Source: a gamma proteobacterium endosymbiont of Lamellibrachia anaximandri (GTDB lineage Bacteria; Pseudomonadota; Gammaproteobacteria; Chromatiales; Chromatiaceae). From it: a stretch of 64,000 bases of DNA. The position numbers and the translations under genes were made by a program. The notes below the pieces were generated by a model. The model saw only the letters and a program-made list of their open reading frames with translations. It was not told the origin of the DNA and made no database searches. Within the stretch, counting starts at the first letter, position 1. Every line of letters begins with the position of its first letter. Location: positions 1-64,000 of the forward strand of contig JAESPD010000012.1 in assembly GCA_016756855.1 (NCBI GenBank), given 5' to 3'. This document shows, in pieces, positions 40,491 to 54,976 of this stretch.

Positions 40491-40606
40491 CTTTAATACA
40501 GTTACGCGCCTCGTGGAATCCTTCATCACCCCGCGAATTTGATCTAAAACAGTGACAGAAAGGTCAGTCGGCCCTAAAATGCCGCGCTTACTGTGAGAGT
40601 GTCTGT

Positions 40607-40948
40607 ATGAAATTCAACCGAATCCCGGTTCTTCTGTTATTGATCCTGTGTTTTCAGGGAGCAGCTATTGCTGCGACCGATCAGCAGTTTGCAGCGATCA
40701 AGCGTCTGGGAGAGCTCAACGGCGTGGCCTTGCATTGCCGTTATCTTGAACAGACCCAGCACATGAAAAGAGTGCTGGTGATGACGCTTCCCAAACGCAG
40801 GCAGTTGGGAGAGTTGTTCGATATTGAAACCAATACATCCTTCATGAGTTTTATGGCGGCACAGGCCACCTGTCCGAGTGCGTCGGCATTCAAAAAGCAG
40901 GTCGATGTGGCTGTGCAGGAACTTGAAACTGTCTTTAGCAAACCCTAA
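40607..40948 (+). CDS. Small secreted protein upstream of the ZnuA-SCO fusion, function unknown
   Basis: The 113-residue protein has a clear Sec signal peptide (residues 1-22, ending GAAIA). The mature part is helical with two cysteines (in ALHCRYLEQ and QATCPSAS), which could form a disulfide or bind metal. I do not recognise a family. It ends ten bases before the fusion gene and is probably co-transcribed with it, placing it in the N2O-reductase maturation context by location only. Confidence 0.7.
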   Translation: MKFNRIPVLLLLILCFQGAAIAATDQQFAAIKRLGELNGVALHCRYLEQTQHMKRVLVMTLPKRRQLGELFDIETNTSFMSFMAAQATCPSASAFKKQVDVAVQELETVFSKP

Positions 40949-40958
40949 GCCGATTATT

Positions 40959-42392
40959 ATGTGGTTCAAGCGTTATCTATTCCCTCTGTGTGCCGTTCTC
41001 TGTCTCCTTTTCTCTGGACGGATAGTCTTGGCGGATGACAGTTTTGATGTCGTTGTCAGCATCAAGCCGATCCACTCCATCTTGGCTGGCCTTTTGGAAG
41101 GCACAAAAGGCCCGCAGCTACTTGTGACTGGGGAGCAGAGTCCCCTTGTATTCAAGCCAACTGAGCAGCAGAAGCATGCTATGCAGTCTGCTGATCTGGT
41201 CATCTGGGTCGGCCCGGAGTTGGAGGAGCATCTGGCGGAGTCGATCGCCGCGCTTGAACCCCGGGTAAGGGTAATCGAGCTTTTATCGAGTAACAGCATG
41301 AAGGTTCTCCTCTCGCGGGGTGATGATGCAAAACGTGACCCGTTTTTCTGGCTCGATGACCGGAATATCATCATTTTGCTGGATGATCTTACCCGTTTGC
41401 TGGTGGAGGCAGACTCGCTCCGAACCCACATCTACCAGCAAAACAGACGCAAGATGATGCAGCGGCTTACCCGCATCGACCGTGAATATGAGTACGGTTA
41501 TCGGGGATTGAAGGCGGGATTGGGTGTGCAGTATTACGATACCCTTCACTATTTTGAACAGGCCTATGCGCTGACGGTACTCGAACATGTGGGTATCTCT
41601 CCCAGGCAACCGGGGGATGCGGCTTCACTGTTCAAGGTGCGGCAGCGCATCGTAGACGGTGAAGCAGTGTGCCTGCTGATAGAAGCGGGCATGCCTGCGG
41701 AGCATGCAGGGCTTTTGACTCAGGGGCAGGAAGTCAACATCGGCAGACTCGACAGCCTGGGCATCAATCTAAAGCCGGGTCCCGATCTCTATTTCCAACT
41801 GATGGATCATAATACGGATACCATCAAGCGGTGTTTGAATGCGGATATGGGGGCAGCGGAACAGGCACGTATTACAGCCGATAGTGATGGTATTCCCGAT
41901 CAGGATGGTATTGGTGGGCGTTTCATCCTGACCGACCATCTTGGTGGAACGCTTACCGAAGATGACATGCGGGGAGGTTATCACCTGCTCTATTTCGGTT
42001 ACACCTACTGTCCGGATGTCTGTCCCACGACCCTGCAGGTGCTGTCACTGGCCTTGGACGAACTGGGTGAAAAGGCCAAATTGATACAGCCCTACTTCAT
42101 TACCATCGATCCGGAGCGGGATAACGTTAAGGTGATGCGTAACTATGTAGAGTACTTTGATCCCCGGTTGATCGGGGTGACAGGTTCAAAGCCGATGATT
42201 GAGCGTGTTGCCACCCAGTTCAAGGTGAAATATGAAAAGGTGGAGGAGGAGTTGGCTGACCCCGACCTCTATGTGATGGACCACTCCGCGAGCCTCTATC
42301 TATTGGGGCCCGACGGCCGCTTTATAAAGAAATATGTCTATGGCATTACCGCTGAGCAGCTTGCTCAGGAGTTGCTTGAGGTTCTACCCTAA
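40959..42392 (+). CDS. Fusion of a degenerate ZnuA-like metal-binding domain with a SCO1 copper chaperone
   Basis: The 477-residue exported protein has a signal or anchor helix (1-25). Residues about 28-285 align with ZnuA-type periplasmic metal-binding proteins (VVVSIKPIHSILAGLLEG, ADLVIWVGPELEE, DPFFWLDDRN, YYDTLHYFEQAYAL). A linker with an Asp-rich DSDGIPDQDG motif (308-317) follows. Residues about 320-477 form a SCO domain with Cys351, Cys355 and His442. The ZnuA histidines are replaced: the EHDY-type site reads EQSPL, DPHFW reads DPFFW, and FHDAYxYFE reads YYDTLHYFE. The SCO site is intact. It sits directly before nosZ, suggesting copper delivery to NosZ. The start at 40959 is chosen because the upstream extension overlaps the previous gene. 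Confidence 0.88.
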   Translation: MWFKRYLFPLCAVLCLLFSGRIVLADDSFDVVVSIKPIHSILAGLLEGTKGPQLLVTGEQSPLVFKPTEQQKHAMQSADLVIWVGPELEEHLAESIAALEPRVRVIELLSSNSMKVLLSRGDDAKRDPFFWLDDRNIIILLDDLTRLLVEADSLRTHIYQQNRRKMMQRLTRIDREYEYGYRGLKAGLGVQYYDTLHYFEQAYALTVLEHVGISPRQPGDAASLFKVRQRIVDGEAVCLLIEAGMPAEHAGLLTQGQEVNIGRLDSLGINLKPGPDLYFQLMDHNTDTIKRCLNADMGAAEQARITADSDGIPDQDGIGGRFILTDHLGGTLTEDDMRGGYHLLYFGYTYCPDVCPTTLQVLSLALDELGEKAKLIQPYFITIDPERDNVKVMRNYVEYFDPRLIGVTGSKPMIERVATQFKVKYEKVEEELADPDLYVMDHSASLYLLGPDGRFIKKYVYGITAEQLAQELLEVLP

Positions 42393-42441: not shown

Positions 42442-42455
42442 TTGACCAAAATCAA
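42442..42455 (+). promoter_or_regulatory. FNR/DNR box upstream of nosZ
   Basis: TTGAC-CAAA-ATCAA matches the TTGAT-N4-ATCAA consensus in nine of ten positions. Its centre is about 42-44 bases before the start point expected from the -10-like TATTCT at 42481-42486, the class II activator position. This suggests anaerobic or nitric-oxide-responsive activation of nosZ. Confidence 0.75.
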
Positions 42456-42547: not shown

Positions 42548-44854
42548 ATGAAGAAAAGCACCAAACAGTTATGTACGGCGCTTGTGGGCCTTGGGATCGG
42601 GCTTGGAGCGGCTTCAAGCAGTTTCGCCCAGCAGTCTCTCAAAGATGTGATGAAGGCGCGTGGCCTGACACAGAAAGATCTGATGGCTGCCGCAAAGACC
42701 TACACGCCTACCGGCGGACGCGATGAGTATCTGGCCTTTAGTTCAGGCGGCCAAAGCGGCCATGTGATCGTTTACGGCATCCCTTCGATGCGTATCCTGA
42801 AATACATCGGTGTTTTTTCTCCAGAGCCTTGGCAGGGCTACGGCTTCGATGATGAGTCCAAGGCTGTTCTGGCTCAGGGCAAGATCAACGGCAAGCTGAT
42901 CAACTATGGTGATACTCACCATCCTGCTTTCTCGGAAACCGAGGGTGAGTACAACGGTAAATACCTCTTCATCAACGACAAGGCCAATCCCCGTATTGCG
43001 GTTATCGATCTGCACGACTTCGAAACCAAGCAGATTGTGGTCAACCCCTTCATGAAGTCCGATCACGGTGGTGCTTTTGTTACCCCGAATACAGAATACG
43101 TGATGGAGGCCTCCCAGTACGCAGCGCCGGTCAGTGGTGACTATGTACCGCTGGAAGAGTTCAACGAGAAGTATCGTGGCGCTCTGACCTACTGGAAGTT
43201 CGATAACAAGAAGGGGCGGATTCAAGAAGATCAGTCCTTTACTTTCGAATTGCCGCCTTACAGTCAGGATCTCTCTGACGCGGGTAAGGGGCCTTCCATG
43301 GGTTGGGGTTTCACTAACTCCTTCTGTTCCGAGCGTTATGTCGGTGGTATCGAGCGTGGGCGTCCTCCTTTCGAGGCAGGTTGTTCGCAGAAAGACACCG
43401 ACTTCCTGCACGTAACCAACTGGACAAAAGCAGCTGAACTGGTTGCTGCCGGTAAGGTGCACAAGGTCAATGGCGCTTACCAGATCACCATGAAACAGGC
43501 CGTTAAAGAAGGCCTGCTCTATCTGATCCCTGAGCCCAAGAGCCCACATGGTGTTGATGTAAGTCCTGACGGCACCCACATCATCGTCTCCGGTAAGCTC
43601 GACAGCCATGCCTGGGTCTACAGCTGGGACAAGATCAAGAAGGCCATCGACAGCAAGAAGTTCGAAGGCAGAGATCCCTATGGCATTCCGATCATCTCCA
43701 TGAAGGATACTCTGCACACTCAGGTGCAGGTAGGTCTTGGTCCTTTGCATACCCAGTATGATTCCAAAGAGTGCGTGGTCTACACATCCATCTATGTGGA
43801 CTCCATGGTTACCAAGTGGGACTACTGTAAAGGTAAGGTACTGGATCAACTCCACATCCACTACAATATTGGTCACTTGATGTCGATGGAAGGCGACTCT
43901 GTCTCTCCTGACGGCAAGTATCTGGTCTCTCTTAACAAGCTGGCTATCGATCGATTCAATCCTGTCGGTCCTCTGCATCCGCAGAACCACCAGTTGATCG
44001 ATATCAGTGGCGACAAGATGCAGCTGCTCTACGATATGCCCCTGCCTCTGGGTGAACCCCACTACGTTGTGGCGATCAAGGCCGACAAGCTGAAGCCTGC
44101 AGTTCGTTACAAATCCGGTTGGGATAGCCGTACCGACAAGAAATCACCCTGGAAGACCCGTGCCGGTCGTGAAAAGGTGGTTCGCAAAGACGGTGTGGTT
44201 CATATCTATGGTACTGTGATTCGCTCTCACATCACACCTGAGATCATCGAGGTCGAAGAGGGTGAGACTGTCTCCATCCATCTGACCAATCTGGAACGTG
44301 CTGAGGACGAAACCCATGGTTTCGCCATGTACAGCCAGAACGTCAACCTCTCTATTGAACCTGGCAAGACCGTATCGGCTACCTTCGTGGCAGATAAAGC
44401 CGGTGTCTTCCCCTACTACTGCACCGAGTTCTGCTCCGCGCTCCACTTGGAGATGCAGGGTTACCTGCTGGTCAAGCCGAAAGGCTATGTGGCCAAAGCT
44501 GGCGCGAAGATGGAAGAAGGTCAGAAGTACACCAAGGCTGATTATGACAAGCAGGTGAAGACAAATGTCGATACTCAGGCTGTAATCAACTCCGTGGTGG
44601 GCTTCATCACCAGTCACAACTACAAGGACTTCCCGGAAGTTGTTGCACTGGTTGAGGATGCGACCGACCAGCTCGGTTTTGCTGATGAGGCCAAGAAGAA
44701 GGCCGAGGGCTATGCTGCCAAGGGTGACTTCCAGAATGCTACACTCTGGGCGGGTCAGCACTGGCAGTATCAAGTCAAGACCGCTGATCTGGGTCTGCGC
44801 GCCAAAACCTTCCTTGAGGAGCATGGTGCAGTAAAGGTCGAAGCGAAAAAGTAA
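42548..44854 (+). CDS. nosZ: Nitrous oxide reductase, clade II (Sec-exported)
   Basis: NosZ reduces N2O to N2 in the periplasm with the CuZ and CuA centres. The 768-residue precursor has a Sec signal (1-27, ending SSSFA) with no twin-arginine motif, a clade II trait. The propeller carries the CuZ histidines in GDTHHPAFSE (His124, His125) and further His residues downstream. The C-terminal cupredoxin has the CuA set Cys625, Cys629, His633 and Met636 in YYCTEFCSALHLEM. Clade II is also supported by the absence of nosR and the presence of nosB, nosG and nosH downstream. A strong intrinsic terminator follows. Confidence 0.97.
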   Translation: MKKSTKQLCTALVGLGIGLGAASSSFAQQSLKDVMKARGLTQKDLMAAAKTYTPTGGRDEYLAFSSGGQSGHVIVYGIPSMRILKYIGVFSPEPWQGYGFDDESKAVLAQGKINGKLINYGDTHHPAFSETEGEYNGKYLFINDKANPRIAVIDLHDFETKQIVVNPFMKSDHGGAFVTPNTEYVMEASQYAAPVSGDYVPLEEFNEKYRGALTYWKFDNKKGRIQEDQSFTFELPPYSQDLSDAGKGPSMGWGFTNSFCSERYVGGIERGRPPFEAGCSQKDTDFLHVTNWTKAAELVAAGKVHKVNGAYQITMKQAVKEGLLYLIPEPKSPHGVDVSPDGTHIIVSGKLDSHAWVYSWDKIKKAIDSKKFEGRDPYGIPIISMKDTLHTQVQVGLGPLHTQYDSKECVVYTSIYVDSMVTKWDYCKGKVLDQLHIHYNIGHLMSMEGDSVSPDGKYLVSLNKLAIDRFNPVGPLHPQNHQLIDISGDKMQLLYDMPLPLGEPHYVVAIKADKLKPAVRYKSGWDSRTDKKSPWKTRAGREKVVRKDGVVHIYGTVIRSHITPEIIEVEEGETVSIHLTNLERAEDETHGFAMYSQNVNLSIEPGKTVSATFVADKAGVFPYYCTEFCSALHLEMQGYLLVKPKGYVAKAGAKMEEGQKYTKADYDKQVKTNVDTQAVINSVVGFITSHNYKDFPEVVALVEDATDQLGFADEAKKKAEGYAAKGDFQNATLWAGQHWQYQVKTADLGLRAKTFLEEHGAVKVEAKK

Positions 44855-45095: not shown

Positions 45096-45413
45096 ATGTT
45101 GAAATTGATCACTTTTGCCGCAGTAGCCGCGACTCTCTCTCTTGGAGGAATTGGCAATGCAGTTGCTGCTGATGGTGCTGCGCTCTTCCAGGCAAAGACC
45201 TGTTGGTCCTGCCACGGTAAAGATGCCAAGACCCCAATTATGCCTATGTATCCCAAGCTGGCCGGCCAAAATGCCGACTACGCCTTTAACCAGATGAAAG
45301 ACATCAAATCCGGTGCCCGCAACAATGGCCAGACCGCTGCGATGAAGGGCGTGATGGGTCTGGTCTCCGATGATGAGATGCGCGCGATCGCAGATTGGCT
45401 CGCTACTCAGTAG
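45096..45413 (+). CDS. Monohaem cytochrome c (c553-like), nos cluster
   Basis: A 105-residue periplasmic class I cytochrome c with a Sec signal (1-22, ending NAVAA), haem motif CWSCH, and a distal Met candidate in AAMKGVMG. The ATG at 45096 is preceded by AGAGGAAA; a longer in-frame extension is not supported. Its position after nosZ matches the NosC cytochromes of clade II clusters, so it may shuttle electrons from NosG/NosH to NosZ. Confidence 0.92.
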   Translation: MLKLITFAAVAATLSLGGIGNAVAADGAALFQAKTCWSCHGKDAKTPIMPMYPKLAGQNADYAFNQMKDIKSGARNNGQTAAMKGVMGLVSDDEMRAIADWLATQ

Positions 45414-45471
45414 TCAAAACAACTCTGCACTGAGATTTAATCCCGTCGTTGGGTTAAGTCCTGTTGCAGGT

Positions 45472-45485
45472 TTGACGTATATCAA
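45472..45485 (+). promoter_or_regulatory. FNR/DNR box upstream of the dihaem cytochrome gene
   Basis: TTGAC-GTAT-ATCAA matches the consensus in nine of ten positions. A -10-like AAGAAT at 45508-45513 puts the centre about 41 bases upstream of a predicted start, as for class II activation. It is the third such box in 3 kb. Confidence 0.7.
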
Positions 45486-45623
45486 AGAGTGCTAATATTC
45501 CCCGTGAAAGAATCCGTCCCCTGAACGGAGGTTGAATTTCCGAATAGACGGGGGCGCAAGGGCGGCCTGGTGTATATTTAAAAGTGTTTGTACCCCGGCA
45601 CCGGGGAACAGGAGAAACTTGGA

Positions 45624-46406
45624 ATGAGTATTAAATCTGTATTGACGACCCTTTCACTGGCTTTGGGCTTGGCCGTTTCCGCCAGCAGCTTTGCTGGAGA
45701 GGCTGATGTCCAGGTAACGGATGTCAAAGACTGGAACAAAGCGGGTGGTGAGAAGACCGAGGCGATGCTACTGACCCCCGACAAGCCGCGTGGCATCGTG
45801 GTCTATGAGGTCTGCTCCGCCTGCCACCTGCTGGAAGGCTGGGGACTGAAGGACGGTACTTTTCCACAGCTGGCCGGACAGCATCGCAGTGTGCTGGTCA
45901 AACAGTTGACCGACATTCGCGCCAAGAACCGCGATAATCCCACCATGTACCCGTTTGCCCTGGACGAACAGATCCTGGCCGTGTCTGGGTACCATGAGGG
46001 AGAGATAAATCCCGCGCAGTTGGTTGCAGACGTGACCGACTACATCTCCAAGCTGCCAATGAATCCGGACAACGGTAAGGGCCCTTGGAACGCATTGTTT
46101 CCAGAGTTTGAGCAGGGCAAGAAGCTCTATGCCGACAACTGCATCCAGTGTCACGGTGACAATGGCGAAGGCATAGCAGACAAGTTCTACCCCAAGATTC
46201 AGGGTCAGCACTATAACTATATGCTGCGTCAGTTCGAGTGGATTCGTGACGGCAAACGCCGTAATGCAAATCCCGACATGGTGAAACAGATCAAAGGCTT
46301 CTCAGACAAGGATATGCAGATGGTTATCAACTACGTATCTCGTCAGAAGGTTCCCGCCAAGGATCTCGCACCTTCCAAAGATTGGCAGAATCCTGATTAC
46401 GATTGA
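45624..46406 (+). CDS. Dihaem cytochrome c (c4-like), nos cluster
   Basis: A 260-residue exported cytochrome with two class I domains, a Sec signal (1-22) and haem motifs CSACH (first domain) and CIQCH (second). Each domain is followed by a PQLAGQ/PKIQGQ segment as in the c4 family. The ATG at 45624 follows AGGAG by nine bases. It lies between nosZ and nosB, with an 11-bp hairpin after it. A role in electron transfer to NosZ is inferred from position. Confidence 0.92.
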   Translation: MSIKSVLTTLSLALGLAVSASSFAGEADVQVTDVKDWNKAGGEKTEAMLLTPDKPRGIVVYEVCSACHLLEGWGLKDGTFPQLAGQHRSVLVKQLTDIRAKNRDNPTMYPFALDEQILAVSGYHEGEINPAQLVADVTDYISKLPMNPDNGKGPWNALFPEFEQGKKLYADNCIQCHGDNGEGIADKFYPKIQGQHYNYMLRQFEWIRDGKRRNANPDMVKQIKGFSDKDMQMVINYVSRQKVPAKDLAPSKDWQNPDYD

Positions 46407-46416
46407 TCAATGACAA

Positions 46417-46447
46417 CTGTACCGGATGTTTGGAAAATCCGGTACAG
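46417..46447 (+). other. Intercistronic hairpin between the dihaem cytochrome and nosB
   Basis: CTGTACCGGAT and ATCCGGTACAG form a perfect 11-bp stem around a 9-base loop. Only a short pyrimidine tract follows (CTTTCCCTCT), so partial termination or mRNA stabilisation is as likely as full termination. Confidence 0.6.
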
Positions 46448-46531
46448 GCTTTCCCTCTAAATTCCCCGGGAGTCGCTTAAGGTGTTTCTTCCAGAAGTGC
46501 CTTGAGTCTCACCGGGGGACTCATCAACAAA

Positions 46532-47728
46532 ATGTCAGTGATTATGCAAAACAAGCAAACGCTCCTAGTCGCAATACTCTCTCTGGTCGCTGTAGGTCTG
46601 CTTGCAGTCATCTTCTATAGCCCGATCTGGTGGGTCTCTCTCACTGCGCCTAACTACCCTGAAGAGTCCTTTCCGGATGGTGTGCGAATTCATTTTCACA
46701 TGAATGGCGTCTTCAACGGTTGTCAAAAGCAAGACAAGGCTGAAATTACTGAAGATGAAGCACTCGATTGTGTGCATGAGATGGATACCATCAACCACTA
46801 TGTCGGCATGTATCCCATTGCCGCAGGTGGTCCGGTAGAGCGAGGCTTCGGTCAATTCCTGATGGCGTTCATGGTCGTTATGTTGCTGGGGTTTATCTGT
46901 ACCAAGCCAAAAATACGCATGGCGCTAATGAGTGCAGGTTTTTTAGGTATTGCCCTCTGGATGTATCTCACGCTGTATGGAGAAGAGGGTTTCAATCTGC
47001 AGAATGAAGGATTTGTCACTGCACTGGTGACCTCTCTTGATCAGGAGGCGTCCGGCGAATCCTCAGAGCCTGAAATCGTCATTGGTGGAATTACCGGCGT
47101 TCTGAAAACTTCGCTTGAAGATTCAGGCGTCGAGGTTATCCTTCCATCTGAGGTGGCGGCTGCAAAGGCAAAGGCTGATAAAACCGATGTCGGCAAGACA
47201 CACCTGATTGAGCAACTCAGGATTACCTATGACATTGACCAGGCTAAGTCGGAAACGCTGGAACCTTGGAACGGCAGTTCATTCCAGGTGATGTCCTGGC
47301 ACTATGGAAAAAGCCTGGGGCGCTATTTCAATAACCAGGAAGAGATTGTGCCGATGGTCGCCACTCTGGAAACTGCGGTCAAAGTTGTTTTCTTTGGTCT
47401 GTTGGCGTCGATGGTGGTGGTGGTGGTCGGTGCGCGCAAGAACAATGGCTTTTTCTATTGGTTGCTGGTAATGGTGCCAATGGCCCTGCCACTCTTCTTT
47501 ATTATCGACTACTCAGCCTGGCTCTGGTGGTATGGACACACCCTGAACGACATGGGCGCTTTTTCGGTCAAGCCCTTCATGCCAACCGTATTTGGTCAGG
47601 GAAAGGTAGCGCAGTTCACCACCCACTCCTATCCATACACAGGCTTCTTTTTGATGCTGTTGACGTCGGTGGTATTGGCTGTGGCGGCACTGATTCGTAA
47701 GAAACAGTTTAAGGAGTCGAGTGATTGA
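46532..47728 (+). CDS. nosB: NosB-like integral membrane protein of clade II nos clusters
   Basis: A 398-residue membrane protein in the position of nosB, a gene found only in clade II N2O-reductase clusters and without a settled function. It has one N-terminal helix (about 12-34) and a periplasmic segment with a Cys pair (FNGCQKQDKAEI, ALDCVHEMD). Two helices lie near 105-150, then comes a large acidic soluble part (about 155-270), and four C-terminal helices. The ATG at 46532 is chosen over ATG 46544; neither has a strong ribosome-binding site. The stop overlaps the nosD start (TTGA). Confidence 0.65.
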   Translation: MSVIMQNKQTLLVAILSLVAVGLLAVIFYSPIWWVSLTAPNYPEESFPDGVRIHFHMNGVFNGCQKQDKAEITEDEALDCVHEMDTINHYVGMYPIAAGGPVERGFGQFLMAFMVVMLLGFICTKPKIRMALMSAGFLGIALWMYLTLYGEEGFNLQNEGFVTALVTSLDQEASGESSEPEIVIGGITGVLKTSLEDSGVEVILPSEVAAAKAKADKTDVGKTHLIEQLRITYDIDQAKSETLEPWNGSSFQVMSWHYGKSLGRYFNNQEEIVPMVATLETAVKVVFFGLLASMVVVVVGARKNNGFFYWLLVMVPMALPLFFIIDYSAWLWWYGHTLNDMGAFSVKPFMPTVFGQGKVAQFTTHSYPYTGFFLMLLTSVVLAVAALIRKKQFKESSD

Positions 47729-49086
47729 AGCCATCGCTTTGGTCGCATGTCTTGGTCTGTCTTGCCTTTCTGCTGTTGCCTTTGGGCAGCAGTCAGGCAG
47801 CCTGTCCCTCGTTTCAGGAGTTGGTCGATGCGGCTGACCCCAAAGGTACGCTGACTCCACCGCCCGGCACCTATGCCGGGCCGGTTACCATCGAGAGCGC
47901 CATTACCATCGACGGCCAAGGGAAAGTCACCATCGATGCCGGCGGCAAAGGTTCCGTCATCTATCTGGATACAGATGGAGCAACCTTGAAAAATCTGCAT
48001 CTGACCAACTCAGGTGAATCCCACAACGATATCGATTCGGGGGTTCAGGTTCGCGGCAATTTCAATGTCATCAAGGATAATGTCATCGATAATTCCCTGT
48101 TTGGCATAGACCTCCAGCAGTCCGAAAACAATATCGTTTTGCGAAACCGCATCTCCTCCAAGCCTTTCGATCTAGGCATGCGGGGTGATTCAGTCCGGCT
48201 CTGGTACAGCTTCAACAACAAGATCACAGACAATATCATCCGGGATTCCCGGGACATGGTCGTCTGGTATTCGGCAGATAATCTGATTGCCCGAAATGAT
48301 TCCCGTGGTGGTCGTTATTCCCTCCATTTCATGTATTCGAAATACAATGAGGTGATAGAGAACCACTACGAAAACAATTCGGTGGGTATCTTCCTGATGT
48401 ACAGCGACGGCGTACAGGTGAAGAATAACTATATCGCCCATGCACTTGGGCCAACCGGGATGGGTATTGGCTTTAAAGAGACCTCCGATGTGGATGTCGT
48501 CGGCAATCAGATTCTCTATTGCGCCACCGGTATCTATCTGGATATCTCCCCCTATGACCCGGAGACAACCAATCGGCTGAAGAAGAATTTGGTCGCCTAC
48601 AGTGGAATCGGCATTCTGTTTTTGAATGATTGGACAGGTAACATTCTGGAGAGCAACAGCTTTAAGGGTAATATTACTCAGGTTGCGGTTTCCGGCGCGG
48701 GCAAGACCGCGAACCGGAACGACTGGATTGGAAACTACTGGGACGACTATGAAGGATTCGACCAGGATCGTGACGGCGTGGGTGATAAGCCCTATAAACT
48801 CTACAGTTATGCCGACAGAATCTGGATGGATGTGCCGCCTGCAAGGTTTTTCAAGGGGTCGCCTGTTTTGGAAGTGATGGACTTTCTGGAACGCCTCGCC
48901 CCGTTTTCAAATCCCAATATGCTGGTTAGAGATGAGCGGCCGATGATGGCTGTGCAATTGGCTGTTGCTGAGGTCGGCCAGGAGAGTGCGTCTACCGTAA
49001 CAGACGAAACAGCCGGTGGCGAAAAAGTGGAAGGTCAGGATGTGTATGATCCACTAAAGGCGCTTCGAGAATCGCTGGGCCGATAG
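47725..49086 (+). CDS. nosD: NosD, periplasmic copper-site maturation protein
   Basis: NosD is required, with the NosFY transporter, for assembly of the CuZ centre. The 453-residue protein has a Sec signal (about 1-22) and a right-handed parallel beta-helix of CASH/PbH1 repeats, visible as recurring N-x-I/V-x-x-N patterns between about residues 75 and 300. A conserved C-terminal GNYWDDYEGFDQDRDGVGD segment is typical. The start is TTG overlapping the nosB stop. A REPIN-like pair lies between nosD and nosG. Confidence 0.93.
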   Translation: MKPSLWSHVLVCLAFLLLPLGSSQAACPSFQELVDAADPKGTLTPPPGTYAGPVTIESAITIDGQGKVTIDAGGKGSVIYLDTDGATLKNLHLTNSGESHNDIDSGVQVRGNFNVIKDNVIDNSLFGIDLQQSENNIVLRNRISSKPFDLGMRGDSVRLWYSFNNKITDNIIRDSRDMVVWYSADNLIARNDSRGGRYSLHFMYSKYNEVIENHYENNSVGIFLMYSDGVQVKNNYIAHALGPTGMGIGFKETSDVDVVGNQILYCATGIYLDISPYDPETTNRLKKNLVAYSGIGILFLNDWTGNILESNSFKGNITQVAVSGAGKTANRNDWIGNYWDDYEGFDQDRDGVGDKPYKLYSYADRIWMDVPPARFFKGSPVLEVMDFLERLAPFSNPNMLVRDERPMMAVQLAVAEVGQESASTVTDETAGGEKVEGQDVYDPLKALRESLGR

Positions 49087-49106
49087 CTGTTGGATCCCTG
49101 TTTCCT

Positions 49107-49195
49107 GTAGGCCTGATCAAGCGTAGCGGATCGGGCATTCACGAAATATCGAAACAGATGGGGTAGCCGGTTCCACTGCGCTTGAACCGGCCTAC
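49107..49195 (+). repeat. REPIN-like palindrome pair inside the nos cluster
   Basis: Unit 1 (49111-49136) has arms GCCTGATC/GATCGGGC with one T-G wobble and loop AAGCGTAGCG. Unit 2 (49166-49191) has a perfect stem GCCGGTTC/GAACCGGC and loop CACTGCGCTT. The offset is 55 bases. It is the reverse complement arrangement of the pairs at 40402 and 53475. Confidence 0.88.
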
Positions 49196-49242
49196 TTATC
49201 GATAGGTAGCAACAACACATATTTCTGGAGGCAGGGTCTCTG

Positions 49243-50142
49243 ATGAGTGACAAAACGACAAAAAAACCCAAAGCCAAGAAGAAGCTTTCGCCAAAACGGA
49301 AAGAGCAGAGCCGACGGGAGTTCCTGCGTTCCACAGTTTTGACTGCAGGTGTTGTCGGTGTTTCCTTGCTCGGGGTTCTTCCCGTGGTGCAGGGAACATC
49401 CATCCGGCTGCGTCCCCCCGGAGCGATCAAGACGCCTTTTGATGAGCAGGAATTCTTTGCCTCCTGCATCAAGTGTGGCCAGTGTGTGCAGGTCTGCCCG
49501 GTGAATGCGATTAAACTGGCGGATCTTGAAGATGGTTTCGGCATCGGTGTTCCCTATATCGATGCCCGGGCGCAAGCCTGTGACTTCTCCTGCGATGGCC
49601 TGCAGTGCGTGTTGGCCTGTCCAACCGGCGCACTGACCCATCATCTCGACTATCCTGCTGACACGCGCATGGGCTTTGCTCGTCTCTCGCGTCCCAGAGC
49701 CTGCCTTGCAGTACAGGGTAAAGGTTTCAAAGGTCAGGCCAGAGGAGCGGATTATAAGGGGCTGTTACGATATGACGAGGTGGACCGCTGGAATCCAATT
49801 CAGGTGGCGGATTATCCGTACGACCTGGAGTTATGCGATCTATGCGTTCGTCAGTGTCCCATTGAGATCCGTATCACCCAATGTGCGGAAAAGGCGAAAC
49901 AGGCTGAAGCCTCTGGAGATTCCGGCAAGGTCGCCAGGGTGGCTGAGCAGCATGGCAATGAATGTCCGCCTAAGCATGCAATCGCACTGGAACCATTCGA
50001 ATTGCCAAATGGGGAGACGAGAATGAAGCCCGTGATCAAGGAGGGGTGTGTCGGTTGCGGCGTCTGCGAAATGATCTGTCCGGTTGAATCGGCTGCGATC
50101 GTGATCGATCTGGATAAAACTGCGGATACGCCGGGAGGTTGA
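49243..50142 (+). CDS. nosG: NosG, periplasmic ferredoxin-type 4Fe-4S protein (NapG homologue)
   Basis: NosG resembles NapG, which with NapH oxidises menaquinol and passes electrons to periplasmic reductases. The 299-residue precursor has a twin-arginine signal (SRREFLRS, about 26-33) and four cysteine clusters: CIKCGQCVQVCP, CDFSCDGLQCVLACP, CDLCVRQCP and CVGCGVCEMICP, binding up to four 4Fe-4S centres. nosH begins one base after its stop. The Tat signal contrasts with the Sec signal of NosZ. Confidence 0.93.
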   Translation: MSDKTTKKPKAKKKLSPKRKEQSRREFLRSTVLTAGVVGVSLLGVLPVVQGTSIRLRPPGAIKTPFDEQEFFASCIKCGQCVQVCPVNAIKLADLEDGFGIGVPYIDARAQACDFSCDGLQCVLACPTGALTHHLDYPADTRMGFARLSRPRACLAVQGKGFKGQARGADYKGLLRYDEVDRWNPIQVADYPYDLELCDLCVRQCPIEIRITQCAEKAKQAEASGDSGKVARVAEQHGNECPPKHAIALEPFELPNGETRMKPVIKEGCVGCGVCEMICPVESAAIVIDLDKTADTPGG

Positions 50143-50143
50143 T

Positions 50144-51115
50144 ATGCGATACATAAGAGACTCCCTGTCACAAATATTTGGCAATAAACCTCGTCGGCCT
50201 TCGAAAGAGCAACAGCCCCCCGAGCTGTTAGAGATCTATCAGGGCAAAAAAGGCAATCTCTCCAAGGCGGATGTCGAAGCAGTACGCCATGAGCACCATA
50301 CGGGTTGTTGTAACAAGTGGCAGCGACGGCGCTGGATTACCCTGATACTGGTGAATGTGCTGTTTGTCGTCTCCTACTATTTCGACGTACAGCTGCTGGA
50401 GGGCGCGCTCACCGCGTCACGCTTTGTGGGTTTTCACATGGCGGATCTCAACTCAGCGCTGCAGGTGGCTTTGGCCTATAAGCACATCGTGCTGAACCTG
50501 GTGATTGGTACGGTCACTGTTTTTATTATGTGGCTGTTGCTCGGTGGCCGCACCTTCTGCTCCTGGGTCTGCCCATACCATCTGTTGGCTGAGTGGGCGG
50601 AATATCTCCACCTCTGGCTGGTGAAGAAGAAGCTGATCAAGAATCACACATTCAACCGCAAGGTGCGTGGTGTTTTCTACGTAATTTTCGCCTTGCTCGC
50701 TTTGATCTCCGGATATACTGTTTTCGAGACCATCTCGCCCACGGGTATCCTGAGTCGCGCCCTGATCTATGGTCCTGGTGTCGCGTTGATCTGGGTGGGA
50801 GCGCTGCTGCTGTTCGAAGTCTTCTACTCCCGTCGCGCCTGGTGCCGTTATGTTTGTCCAATTGGAGTCACCTACGGCGTCGTGGGTGTGTTGTCTCCGC
50901 TGCGGGTAAAGTACAATGCCGAAGCTTGCCACCACGAAGGCGACTGTCGCAAGATCTGCATGGTGCCTCATGTGCTCGATCTGACTGTCCGTGGGGCAGC
51001 ATTCGATGTCAATCAGGATGTAGGTGCGGACTGTACCCGTTGTGGAATGTGTGTGGATGTCTGTCCCACAGGCTCCTTAGTCTATGAATTTAAAGGTTTG
51101 AGTAAACTGCTCTGA
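50144..51115 (+). CDS. nosH: NosH, membrane ferredoxin-type quinol dehydrogenase subunit (NapH homologue)
   Basis: The 323-residue protein has four to five membrane helices and the NapH-type paired motifs CSWVCPYHLL and CRYVCPIGV facing the cytoplasm. A C-terminal 4Fe-4S ferredoxin domain follows (CRKICMVP, CTRCGMCVDVCP). By homology it is the quinol-oxidising partner of NosG. The N-terminal 50 residues are hydrophilic. nosF follows after three bases. Confidence 0.93.
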   Translation: MRYIRDSLSQIFGNKPRRPSKEQQPPELLEIYQGKKGNLSKADVEAVRHEHHTGCCNKWQRRRWITLILVNVLFVVSYYFDVQLLEGALTASRFVGFHMADLNSALQVALAYKHIVLNLVIGTVTVFIMWLLLGGRTFCSWVCPYHLLAEWAEYLHLWLVKKKLIKNHTFNRKVRGVFYVIFALLALISGYTVFETISPTGILSRALIYGPGVALIWVGALLLFEVFYSRRAWCRYVCPIGVTYGVVGVLSPLRVKYNAEACHHEGDCRKICMVPHVLDLTVRGAAFDVNQDVGADCTRCGMCVDVCPTGSLVYEFKGLSKLL

Positions 51116-51118
51116 TCC

Positions 51119-52000
51119 ATGATCCAGTTTGAAAATATCGTAAAACGATTTCGACGCAACGAAGTACTGAAAGGCGTAAACCTGACGATTGAGCGGGGAC
51201 ACAGGGTCGCTTTGGTGGGTTCTAACGGTGCCGGAAAGACGACGCTGATACGTTGCCTGTTGGGTGAATATACCTGTGACGGTCGGGTGCTGGTGGACCG
51301 CATGGACCCGCGCAAGCAGCGGCGTGAAGTGCTCTCCAAGGTCGGTTTTGTGCCGCAACTGCCACCACCTCTGCGTATGCCGGTGGGACAGTTGATTCGC
51401 TTTGCCGCCAGCCTTTGTGAATCCGATCCTGCCAGGATGCGCGATGTGGCACAAAAGCTTGGATTCGATGCAGAACAATTTCGCCACCAACCCTTCGTGA
51501 AACTCTCCGGTGGACAGAAACAGAAGCTGTTGATTGCCATCGCCCTCGGACGGGAGAGTGAGTTGTTGGTTATGGACGAGCCCGCAGCCAATCTCGATCC
51601 GGATGCCCGGCATATCTTTTTTCAACTGCTTGCGGAGAAACAGGAACGTGCAGCGATGCTGATCTCTAGTCATCGTCTGGATGAGGTGGCTACCCTGGTA
51701 AATCGTGTTATCGAAATGGATCAGGGCAAGGTGGTTCTCGATGACCGGGTGGCTGACCTGGTGGAACTCTCCTCCCGTCTGCGCTGCCGATTGCGGTTGA
51801 CCCAGCCCGAAGAGGCATTTGCCAAAACAATCGGCGAGTGGGGTTTTCTGAGTGGTGCGGACGGCGTGACTTGGGAAGGCTATATCGCCGGACCGGACCG
51901 GCTGCGTTTTCTTGGTGTTCTCTCCCGCTATGCTGCCCTGCTTGCCGGTATGGAGATGGAAGAGGCCGAGGAGCAGGTGGCGGCTGCCGATGTCAGCTAA
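51119..52000 (+). CDS. nosF: NosF, ABC transporter ATPase
   Basis: ATP-binding subunit of the NosFY transporter needed for CuZ maturation. The 293-residue protein has Walker A GSNGAGKTTLIR, signature LSGGQKQKL, and Walker B LLVMDEPAANLDPD. A C-terminal extension of about 80 residues follows the ATPase domain. Its 3' end overlaps the nosL start by eleven bases. Confidence 0.95.
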   Translation: MIQFENIVKRFRRNEVLKGVNLTIERGHRVALVGSNGAGKTTLIRCLLGEYTCDGRVLVDRMDPRKQRREVLSKVGFVPQLPPPLRMPVGQLIRFAASLCESDPARMRDVAQKLGFDAEQFRHQPFVKLSGGQKQKLLIAIALGRESELLVMDEPAANLDPDARHIFFQLLAEKQERAAMLISSHRLDEVATLVNRVIEMDQGKVVLDDRVADLVELSSRLRCRLRLTQPEEAFAKTIGEWGFLSGADGVTWEGYIAGPDRLRFLGVLSRYAALLAGMEMEEAEEQVAAADVS

Positions 52001-52559
52001 GCGCAGTTACAGCCTGCTTGCGGGGCTGGCTATTCTTCTCCTGACTGCCTGCTCCGGTGATCCGGGTACGGGTCCCAAAGAGGTGAAATGGGATCGGGTT
52101 GCCTGTGAACGCTGTCGCATGGTACTCAGCGATCGGCACTATTCCGCCCAGATTCGCTATTTTCCCGAAGGTAAACGTTCCAAAGTGGTGGGGTTTGACG
52201 ATATCGGTTGTGCAACGCTCTGGTTGGACACTCAGCCATGGAAGGATGATCCGAAGACAGAGATCTGGGTTACCGATTTTCGCACCGGTGAGTGGATCGA
52301 TGCGCGCACCGCTACCTACGTAAAAGAGAAGATTACACCGATGGAGTACGGATTAGGTGCCCAATCAGATCCGACGCCGGAAGGACTCAATTTTGCCCAG
52401 GCGAAACTGCACGTCATCGAAGTGGAGAAGCGTTTCACCATTCATGGCGTTCACTTGCTTGACCGACTGAAAGAGCAGGCGGATCGGCGCGATGCCAGGC
52501 GCAGGGCCAAACAGGCGGAGCAGGCTCCACCTCCAATCATTCCAAAGAATCAACACTGA
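51990..52559 (+). CDS. nosL: NosL copper chaperone lipoprotein
   Basis: NosL is an outer-membrane or periplasmic lipoprotein that binds Cu(I) and supplies it for CuZ. The ATG at 51990 gives 189 residues with a lipoprotein signal (LLTAC, Cys21). The family signature C-x-x-C-x-M reads VACERCRMVLSDRHYSAQI. A charged C-terminal tail of about 25 residues is unusual. It overlaps nosF by eleven bases and nosY by one base (TGATG); nosL lies between nosF and nosY rather than after nosY. Confidence 0.93.
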   Translation: MSAKRSYSLLAGLAILLLTACSGDPGTGPKEVKWDRVACERCRMVLSDRHYSAQIRYFPEGKRSKVVGFDDIGCATLWLDTQPWKDDPKTEIWVTDFRTGEWIDARTATYVKEKITPMEYGLGAQSDPTPEGLNFAQAKLHVIEVEKRFTIHGVHLLDRLKEQADRRDARRRAKQAEQAPPPIIPKNQH

Positions 52560-53386
52560 TGAAATATCTCTGGCTTACTGCTTACACAGACATAATAGAA
52601 TCCCTGCGGGCCCGCTGGTTCATGGTCTATTCCATGGTGTTTGGCGGATTGGTGGTGATCCTCTTTGCCTTTGGCCTGGCCGAGTCCCGCATCATGGGTT
52701 TCACCGGTCTCTCACGTCTGCTGATCACCTATATCCAGTTGTCGATGGCGATACTGCCTGTATTTGTGTTGATCACTACAGTACGTTCGGTGGCCGGGGA
52801 TCGGGAGGCGGGCGTTTTTGAATATCTCCTCTCTCTGCCTATTACATTGAGCGCCTGGTTCTGGGGACGGGTGTTCGGGCGCTTTTTTGTGGTCTTCCTG
52901 CCGGTACTTCTCGCAATGGTAGGTGCTATCGTTTGGGGAGTGATAAAAGGTGCCGAGGTGCCGTGGGAGCTGCTGATTTACTATACAGGCCTGCTCATGT
53001 CTCTCGCCTGGTGTTTCCTCGGCATTGGTATGTTGATTTCAACCATTGCACGCTCTTCCGACGTGGCGCAGGGTGCCGCTTTTGTCGTCTGGTTGAGTCT
53101 GCTGCTCTTTCTCGACCTGATTTTGCTCGGTGTAATGATTCGTGAACATCTGCCGCCGGAGACCGCTGTAGCTATCGCACTGGCCAACCCGATGCAGGTA
53201 TTCCGTACCGCCACCATGATGTTATTCGATCCACAACTGGTGCTGCTCGGTCCAACGGCTTATGTAATCCTGGATAATTTTGGCCAGGCAGGCTATATCG
53301 CCTACGCAATTGTCTATCCTATTCTGCTGGGTACCGGCTGTGCCTGGCTCGGTTATCTGCTGTTTAAACGCAGCGATTTGCCTTAA
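52559..53386 (+). CDS. nosY: NosY, ABC transporter permease
   Basis: Permease partner of NosF. The 275-residue protein has six predicted membrane helices and the family segment TTVRSVAGDREAGVFEYLLSLP, which lies next to the coupling helix. It is the last gene of the nosBDGHFLY run and is followed by heptamer repeats and a REPIN-like pair. Confidence 0.94.
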   Translation: MKYLWLTAYTDIIESLRARWFMVYSMVFGGLVVILFAFGLAESRIMGFTGLSRLLITYIQLSMAILPVFVLITTVRSVAGDREAGVFEYLLSLPITLSAWFWGRVFGRFFVVFLPVLLAMVGAIVWGVIKGAEVPWELLIYYTGLLMSLAWCFLGIGMLISTIARSSDVAQGAAFVVWLSLLLFLDLILLGVMIREHLPPETAVAIALANPMQVFRTATMMLFDPQLVLLGPTAYVILDNFGQAGYIAYAIVYPILLGTGCAWLGYLLFKRSDLP

Positions 53387-54158: not shown

Positions 54159-54180
54159 TGGCTCCAAGCGGAGCCATCTC
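54159..54180. terminator. Bidirectional terminator-like hairpin
   Basis: A 7-bp stem TGGCTCC/GGAGCCA with loop AAGC lies between two convergent genes. T-tracts on either side are weak. Confidence 0.45.
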
Positions 54181-54862
54181 AGTCATCCAAAATGGATAGA
54201 TAGGCGAAGATGTCTGTGAGCTCTTTGTCACTGAAATCCAACAGTAACTCCTCATCGGGCTCGCTCTCGTCATGGATGCGGATTCTCTTGCGATACTTTT
54301 CCACCTGACGCCAGAGGTAGTTCGTATACTGACCGGCCAGCATTGGCACTGATTCTTTCAGGTCGCCCCAGGCGTCGCGGCCATGGCAGGAGCCGCACTC
54401 CTTACGGTAGCTCTTTTTACCACGCACGATATCCCCCTCGGCACGTGGGATCTGCATCAGCTTTTTTGATTCCAACAGGCGGGCATAGGCGTCGAAATCC
54501 GGGGCATTTTCGTCGGCGGGCGGGAGTCTTGTTTTTAGTTTGATCTGCTCAAGATAGAGGGAGATATCCTGAATATCACTGTCCGGCATCTGGCGTTCGT
54601 CGATATACTCGACCATTGCCAGGTTGGGGCGTTTTCGGTCACGAAACAGGTGGAGCTGTTTGGCGATAAATGCACTCGGCATGCCAGCCAAGCGTGGATA
54701 TTCACCATCTTTTCCGCCCTGACCAAATTCACCGTGACATCCGGCGCAAACTTCATTGATCTCTTCACCATTTTCCGGATCATAATCATGGCTCGCAGCC
54801 GACATTGAAAATATCATGAATAAGAGCAGGGTTATTTTGTGTGGTCTGTTAAGGTGGCTCAT
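54179..54862 (-). CDS. Dihaem cytochrome c, periplasmic
   Basis: A 227-residue exported protein with a Sec signal (about 1-22) and two class I haem motifs, CAGCH and CGSCH, each followed by a P-R-L-A-G-M / P-M-L-A-G-Q segment as in cytochrome c4-type proteins. The start at 54862 gives a clean signal; a longer frame upstream runs into the divergent menE promoter region. It lies at the boundary between the nos and men genes. The partner is unknown; electron delivery to or from the nos chain is possible. Confidence 0.88.
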   Translation of the reverse strand: MSHLNRPHKITLLLFMIFSMSAASHDYDPENGEEINEVCAGCHGEFGQGGKDGEYPRLAGMPSAFIAKQLHLFRDRKRPNLAMVEYIDERQMPDSDIQDISLYLEQIKLKTRLPPADENAPDFDAYARLLESKKLMQIPRAEGDIVRGKKSYRKECGSCHGRDAWGDLKESVPMLAGQYTNYLWRQVEKYRKRIRIHDESEPDEELLLDFSDKELTDIFAYLSILDD

Positions 54863-54976
54863 TGCGCTCTTTTCAATGGTTTGGTATCTGTCTTTTATAG
54901 CCAGAGTATATCCGAATCGCGGCAGGTATTTGATCAGGGTGTCGGCCCTCTCTGCTTTAACGTAGATCAACTTTCG

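Follow-up and report, generated by a model that had tools for sequence, protein, structure and literature searches.

What might a zinc-binding fold that has lost its zinc ligands be doing when it is joined to a copper chaperone directly in front of a nitrous oxide reductase gene? The question is raised by one gene in the window, our term for the whole stretch of 64,000 nucleotides analysed here, from a gammaproteobacterial endosymbiont of the tubeworm Lamellibrachia anaximandri. SCO domains bind copper through a CxxxC motif and a histidine and help to form CuA sites; among known biological sinks for the greenhouse gas N2O, NosZ is the chief one. The gene (40959..42392, + strand) is a single frame of 477 amino acids with a Sec signal peptide. 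Its ZnuA-fold domain (41043..41840, +) is matched by Pfam over residues 31-292 (PF01297; E 1.5e-33, 117 bits against a cut-off of 29), and its SCO thioredoxin-fold copper chaperone domain (41913..42323, +) over residues 319-455 (PF02630, SCO1-SenC; E 1.9e-46, 158 bits against a cut-off of 22.8). In an AF2 model built on 16 fusion-family sequences (pLDDT 82), the structural matches are solved ZnuA for the ZnuA-like half (Z 29.1, r.m.s.d. 2.1 Å over 262 residues; Foldseek E 7e-18) and ScoI/Sco1 for the SCO half (Foldseek E 1e-14). The copper ligands of the SCO half, CPDVC (CxxxC) and the His of MDH, are intact in sequence and alignment. An earlier note on this DNA had described a ZnuA-like domain fused to a SCO domain with intact CxxxC and His, and the single frame, the Pfam matches and the modelled folds bear it out.

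The N terminus, read by eye rather than with a predictor, carries a cleavable-type Sec signal and no later hydrophobic stretch, and in the AF2 model the SCO domain comes after a soluble ZnuA fold. Many independent assemblies carry the same fusion, which rules out a sequencing or ORF artefact as its source; the nearest genomes are those of gammaproteobacterial endosymbionts of siboglinid tubeworms and of Sedimenticola. At one L. anaximandri symbiont locus (L007, 8001-9433) a frameshift, which may be an assembly error, splits the fusion into pieces of 292 and 181 amino acids.

Alignment to E. coli ZnuA and to the canonical ZnuA of the same genome places L, F and Y in the three histidine columns of the fusion (SPLVF, DPFFW and QYYDT) and Asp at the fourth, acidic position; the earlier note had rightly read these sites as changed (EQSPL, DPFFW, YYDTLHYFE), the ligand column in EQSPL being the L and not the E. 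The triad is complete in none of 43 non-redundant fusion-family N-domains, 33 of which have no His, nine one and one two (column 1, Y21 F9 L7 H3 W3; column 2, F31 Y10 H1 L1; column 3, Y21 F12 H7 L1 D1 Q1), while the fourth position is D or N in all 43. Since all three histidines are kept in 16 of 16 comparison ZnuAs (HHHD), as in E. coli ZnuA, we conclude that the site has been lost family-wide and not moved. That the ligands might be shifted but present, the outcome the earlier note had held would speak against its reading, is ruled out: they are absent throughout the 43 aligned relatives, and the alignment of the columns is unambiguous, the neighbouring P34, P100 and Y164 (model numbering) being invariant. 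The histidines that survive here and there are consistent with drift at a site freed from zinc binding. No zinc ABC transporter (ZnuBC) was seen beside the fusion in the neighbourhoods read, a suspected transporter gene adjoining the G084 copy being ccmA.

Phylogenetic trees place the HHH-less ZnuA-like domains in one clade (100/100) on a long stem and separate from every canonical ZnuA. Members of this family occur in two classes and share 44 invariant columns at 41-94% identity, and a set of family-specific residues is invariant or nearly so (K115, R126, R135, R163, E178, Y181, R182, Y192 and Q201). For the ZnuA-like half, comparisons among symbionts and of two Sedimenticola MAGs give dN/dS values of 0.09-0.17; the corresponding values for the SCO half are 0.04-0.12. 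Purifying selection together with new invariant residues indicates that the ZnuA-like half is a working domain whose job has changed. Two sets of apparent relatives were rejected. ZnuA-SCO 'fusions' suggested by long frames in three f112 genomes (G111, G327 and G228) are two adjacent genes with an intact HHHD, outside the clade; an intact-ZnuA fusion suspected in G404/G508 is a canonical ZnuA whose reading frame extends upstream, with Fur-like and ABC genes nearby. At the f112 loci (L090, L091 and L092) the canonical ZnuA, which has HHHD and extra His, adjoins a separate SCO gene, the genomes lack clade II nosZ and the ZnuA-SCO pairing is independent.

Overlooked in the earlier note was an invariant partner of the fusion, a secreted protein of 113 amino acids that we call small113 (40607..40948, +), whose gene immediately precedes the fusion wherever the flanking sequence is long enough to show it. 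Its AF2 model is a four-helix fold (pLDDT 96), and its invariant residues are N, C, K, P, F, C and P, the two cysteines being C22 and C67 (model numbering). It has no Pfam or NCBIfam match, and across 41 members there was no Pfam hit above noise and neither a PF04314 match nor the His/Met copper motif of PCuAC. The closest PDB matches to this fold are at noise level (Z below 5, Foldseek E 2.8 or worse), and we therefore base no functional assignment on it. Among the 369 genomes of the class sample described below, small113 occurs in 11 (E 1e-38 to 1e-30), no other genome reaching 1e-5; these are exactly the genomes with the ZnuA-like family, plus G125. Several genera have a gene for a secreted pentapeptide-repeat protein upstream of small113 (L078, 13513-14253; also the G154, G420, G469 and G511 loci); the window locus lacks it.

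The usual order in most genomes is small113 followed by ZnuA-SCO, and the parts are also found in other combinations. One genome (G319) has small113 fused to SCO (L087), with the ZnuA-like domain as a separate gene (L086); because its SCO groups with fused congeners in the tree (100/99), the split there is secondary. In another (G014), small113 adjoins SCO (L089) and the ZnuA-like gene is found at a different locus, next to a gene of the DsbD/CcdA type (L088), and a third (G125) has small113-SCO (L027) with no ZnuA-like domain detected. The SCO halves of the fusions and the SCOs beside small113 in these three genomes form one clade (98/92). Protein parts found joined in varying pairs usually act together, and from the differing pairs seen here we infer that small113, the SCO domain and the ZnuA-like domain do so too.

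In the window the fusion ends 155 nt before nosZ (42548..44854, +), a clade II, Sec-dependent nitrous oxide reductase gene (TIGR04246; E 9.5e-265, 879 bits against a cut-off of 625) that carries the CuA motif CTEFCSALHLEM and encodes the putative client of the fusion. Behind it come two c-type cytochromes, a NosB-like protein, NosD, NosG, NosH, NosF, NosL and NosY (45096..53386, +). The NosL-like protein scores 23.9 bits against PF05573, just under the cut-off of 24, and the NosB-like membrane protein (46535-47728) has no match in Pfam or NCBIfam. By consensus match alone, an FNR/Crp-like box TTGACCAAAATCAA with one mismatch lies upstream of nosZ (42442..42455, +) and a weaker one before small113 (40539-40552). 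Allowing up to two mismatches, FNR/Crp-like TTGATNNNNATCAA sites number 55 in the window against 29 expected, a count that none of 100 shuffles reaches; they include positions 42442, 43994, 44992 and 45472, and the best of them precede nosZ and the genes for the cytochromes. Just past nosY is a gene (54179-54970, −) for a two-domain c-type cytochrome; in G154, G250, G219, G084, G469 and G511 this cytochrome turns up again, next to a nos cluster or the fusion. In a Lamellibrachia barhami symbiont (L002, 11689-12410), a run of N interrupts nosZ, with overlapping pieces on both sides.

How closely the fusion follows clade II nosZ was surveyed in Pseudomonadota, in an order sample (n = 195) and a class sample (n = 369). 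Within the order, 61 of 68 carriers of the fusion also have clade II nosZ, 31 genomes have nosZ only and 96 have neither (Fisher 1.9e-19, with genomes counted singly and shared ancestry uncorrected). Tallied by genus, with labels assigned by hand from listings, both occur in 15 genera, the fusion alone in 2, nosZ alone in 11 and neither in 28 (3.7e-5, ancestry beyond the genus being uncorrected). Nine of the ten carriers in the class sample have clade II nosZ and 345 genomes have neither (2.5e-11, ancestry again uncorrected); clade II nosZ is also present in all eight carrier genomes of a collection scan and in both of those from another class. The earlier suggestion that the architecture tracks with clade II nosZ thus holds in one direction, since carriers mostly have nosZ, but not in the other: 31 of the 92 genomes with clade II nosZ in the order sample, roughly one in three, do without the fusion, which is accordingly not essential for the CuA of clade II NosZ. 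Nor is the architecture widespread without nosZ in either sample, which the earlier note had said would count against it.

Five of the seven exceptions in the order are drafts 70-82% complete, and in G420 the contig stops 199 nt beyond the fusion. In G387 (99% complete) the fusion is present and nosZ was not found; nosY and a transposase adjoin, and the locus is likely a relic of a lost nos cluster. The stretch in question (L119, 8528-14099) holds the fusion, small113 and nosY beside transposase/IS remnants. A draft in the class sample (G208) has only clade I nosZ, its fusion copy, at the end of a contig, having come to light by way of small113.

The position directly before nosZ, as the earlier note had it, is that of the window and of 29 of the 61 nosZ-bearing carriers in the order, but not of the others. 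In G154, G250, G441 and G438 the fusion lies at the end of the nos cluster or close to it, in G387 it lies beside nosY, and some copies occupy general copper loci away from nos (L005/L124 and L122). Two genomes, G500 and G427, have paralogues, the second copy in G500 coming after SCO and PCuAC genes. In S. selenatireducens and in a genome of another class (G647) the gene order is DsbB, DsbA-like, small113, fusion, with a multicopper oxidase near this locus in S. selenatireducens. Across fusion-family loci the neighbours include PCuAC, a second SCO, DsbA/DsbB, a multicopper oxidase and DsbD/CcdA; the copper and thiol chemistry of PCuAC, SCO, DsbA/B and multicopper oxidase suits a role in CuA assembly.

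Our preferred reading, in which we place somewhat better than even confidence, is that the fusion is a soluble thiol/copper chaperone module for the CuA site of NosZ, in which a ZnuA fold has been reused for docking. NosZ CuA would be the client, and copper transfer and docking the presumed activities. Such a soluble periplasmic SCO-type chaperone would act together with the small four-helix protein whose gene immediately precedes its own. Its SCO half, with CxxxC and His, would reduce the CuA site of Sec-exported clade II NosZ, load it with copper, or both. The N-terminal ZnuA fold, its zinc site filled by bulky residues, would not bind zinc by the known site; it would most likely provide a docking scaffold for small113 and NosZ and may replace the membrane anchor of ordinary SCO proteins. 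More tentatively, and with confidence falling somewhat short of even, we suggest a three-part CuA-maturation module (a SCO chaperone, a zinc-binding fold turned to docking and a four-helix family) that evolved with clade II NosZ and whose parts have been re-fused in various ways.

Several alternatives, which address different parts of this proposal and overlap, have to be set against it. The fusion could be a general copper/redox chaperone for several periplasmic cuproenzymes, such as cytochrome oxidase CuA and multicopper oxidases, its link to nos reflecting genome layout and lifestyle. Copies outside nos loci adjoin PCuAC, SCO, DsbA/B or multicopper oxidase genes, paralogues exist in G500 and G427, and G387 keeps the fusion without nosZ, all of which such a role would accommodate; we nevertheless think it unlikely, if worth serious attention, because the fusion is nearly absent where nosZ is absent (the 96 order and 345 class genomes with neither), even though weak C-terminal cupredoxin (cytochrome oxidase II-like) hits abound in the class sample, and because the window's own genome has other SCO genes available. 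Rather unlikely, too, is that the ZnuA-like half still handles metal, using residues such as H157, H39, Met or Asp to take up Cu, free or in a complex, and feed it to the SCO half. H157 is family-specific and conserved in 37 of 43 relatives, the fourth position stays acidic or N throughout, and one or two ligand histidines persist in 10 of the 43; against this, the 43 relatives contain no new conserved Cys/Met/His cluster, the Cys pair (238, 292) and Met 46 and 282 are common to canonical ZnuA, and Tyr, Phe, Leu or Trp occupy the ligand columns.

The ZnuA-like half might instead sense a non-metal ligand, an anion or small organic molecule, and so control the SCO half. The fold is built for ligand closure and the family has an invariant Arg/Lys/Tyr/Glu set, but with no candidate ligand at hand we regard sensing as improbable. 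That it is a decayed, functionless ZnuA hitchhiking on a SCO gene seems very improbable indeed, variable as the ligand columns are and split as the L007 symbiont copy is by its frameshift: with dN/dS well below 1, invariant columns retained at that depth of divergence, and the domain kept across two classes, with stand-alone copies in G319 and G014, the selection data largely refute decay.

Several known systems resemble parts of the proposed CuA chaperone. SCO1/SenC chaperones such as ScoI and SenC2 have the same domain, fold and Cys/Cys/His ligands, to which the fusion adds a ligand-less ZnuA fold and an obligate small partner; unlike typical SCO proteins it has no membrane anchor as far as can be seen by eye. 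With ZnuA and other cluster A-I proteins the fusion shares the whole fold, the Cys pair and the acidic fourth position, but it lacks the His triad, is joined to SCO and has no zinc ABC transporter beside it in the neighbourhoods read. AdcA of Streptococcus (PDB 7jj9) likewise couples a ZnuA fold to a second periplasmic metal-handling domain, yet keeps its zinc site and ABC transporter, and its second domain is ZinT where that of the fusion is SCO. The PCuAC and SCO pathway for CuA sites also pairs SCO with a small periplasmic partner, and PCuAC itself is present in the operon of one fusion paralogue (L122), but small113 belongs to an unrelated four-helix family. NosL, the CuZ chaperone, is a periplasmic copper helper of nos clusters like the fusion, and a NosL-like gene accompanies the fusion in the window's cluster; its fold and its site, CuZ, differ.

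At low Cu, N2O reduction is impaired in Paracoccus mutants of SenC2, a SCO homologue, and of PCuAC (review PMC7558416). We found little in the literature on how the CuA site of NosZ is filled, and the accounts concern clade I (PMC6530538, PMC7558416). SCO chaperones, ZnuA folds and the fusion of a ZnuA fold to another metal domain, as in AdcA, are already known; in a literature search of limited coverage we found no description of the ZnuA-SCO fusion, the ligand-less N-domain family or small113, and relative to the literature found these are new.

Small113 and the fusion thus offer a concrete two-gene candidate for filling the CuA site of NosZ, one whose phylogenetic pattern is clear and whose hosts include culturable bacteria (Sedimenticola); small113 is also a new protein family to test. 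The N-domain of the fusion provides a clean example of a metal-binding fold whose metal site has been lost family-wide while selection on it has been maintained.
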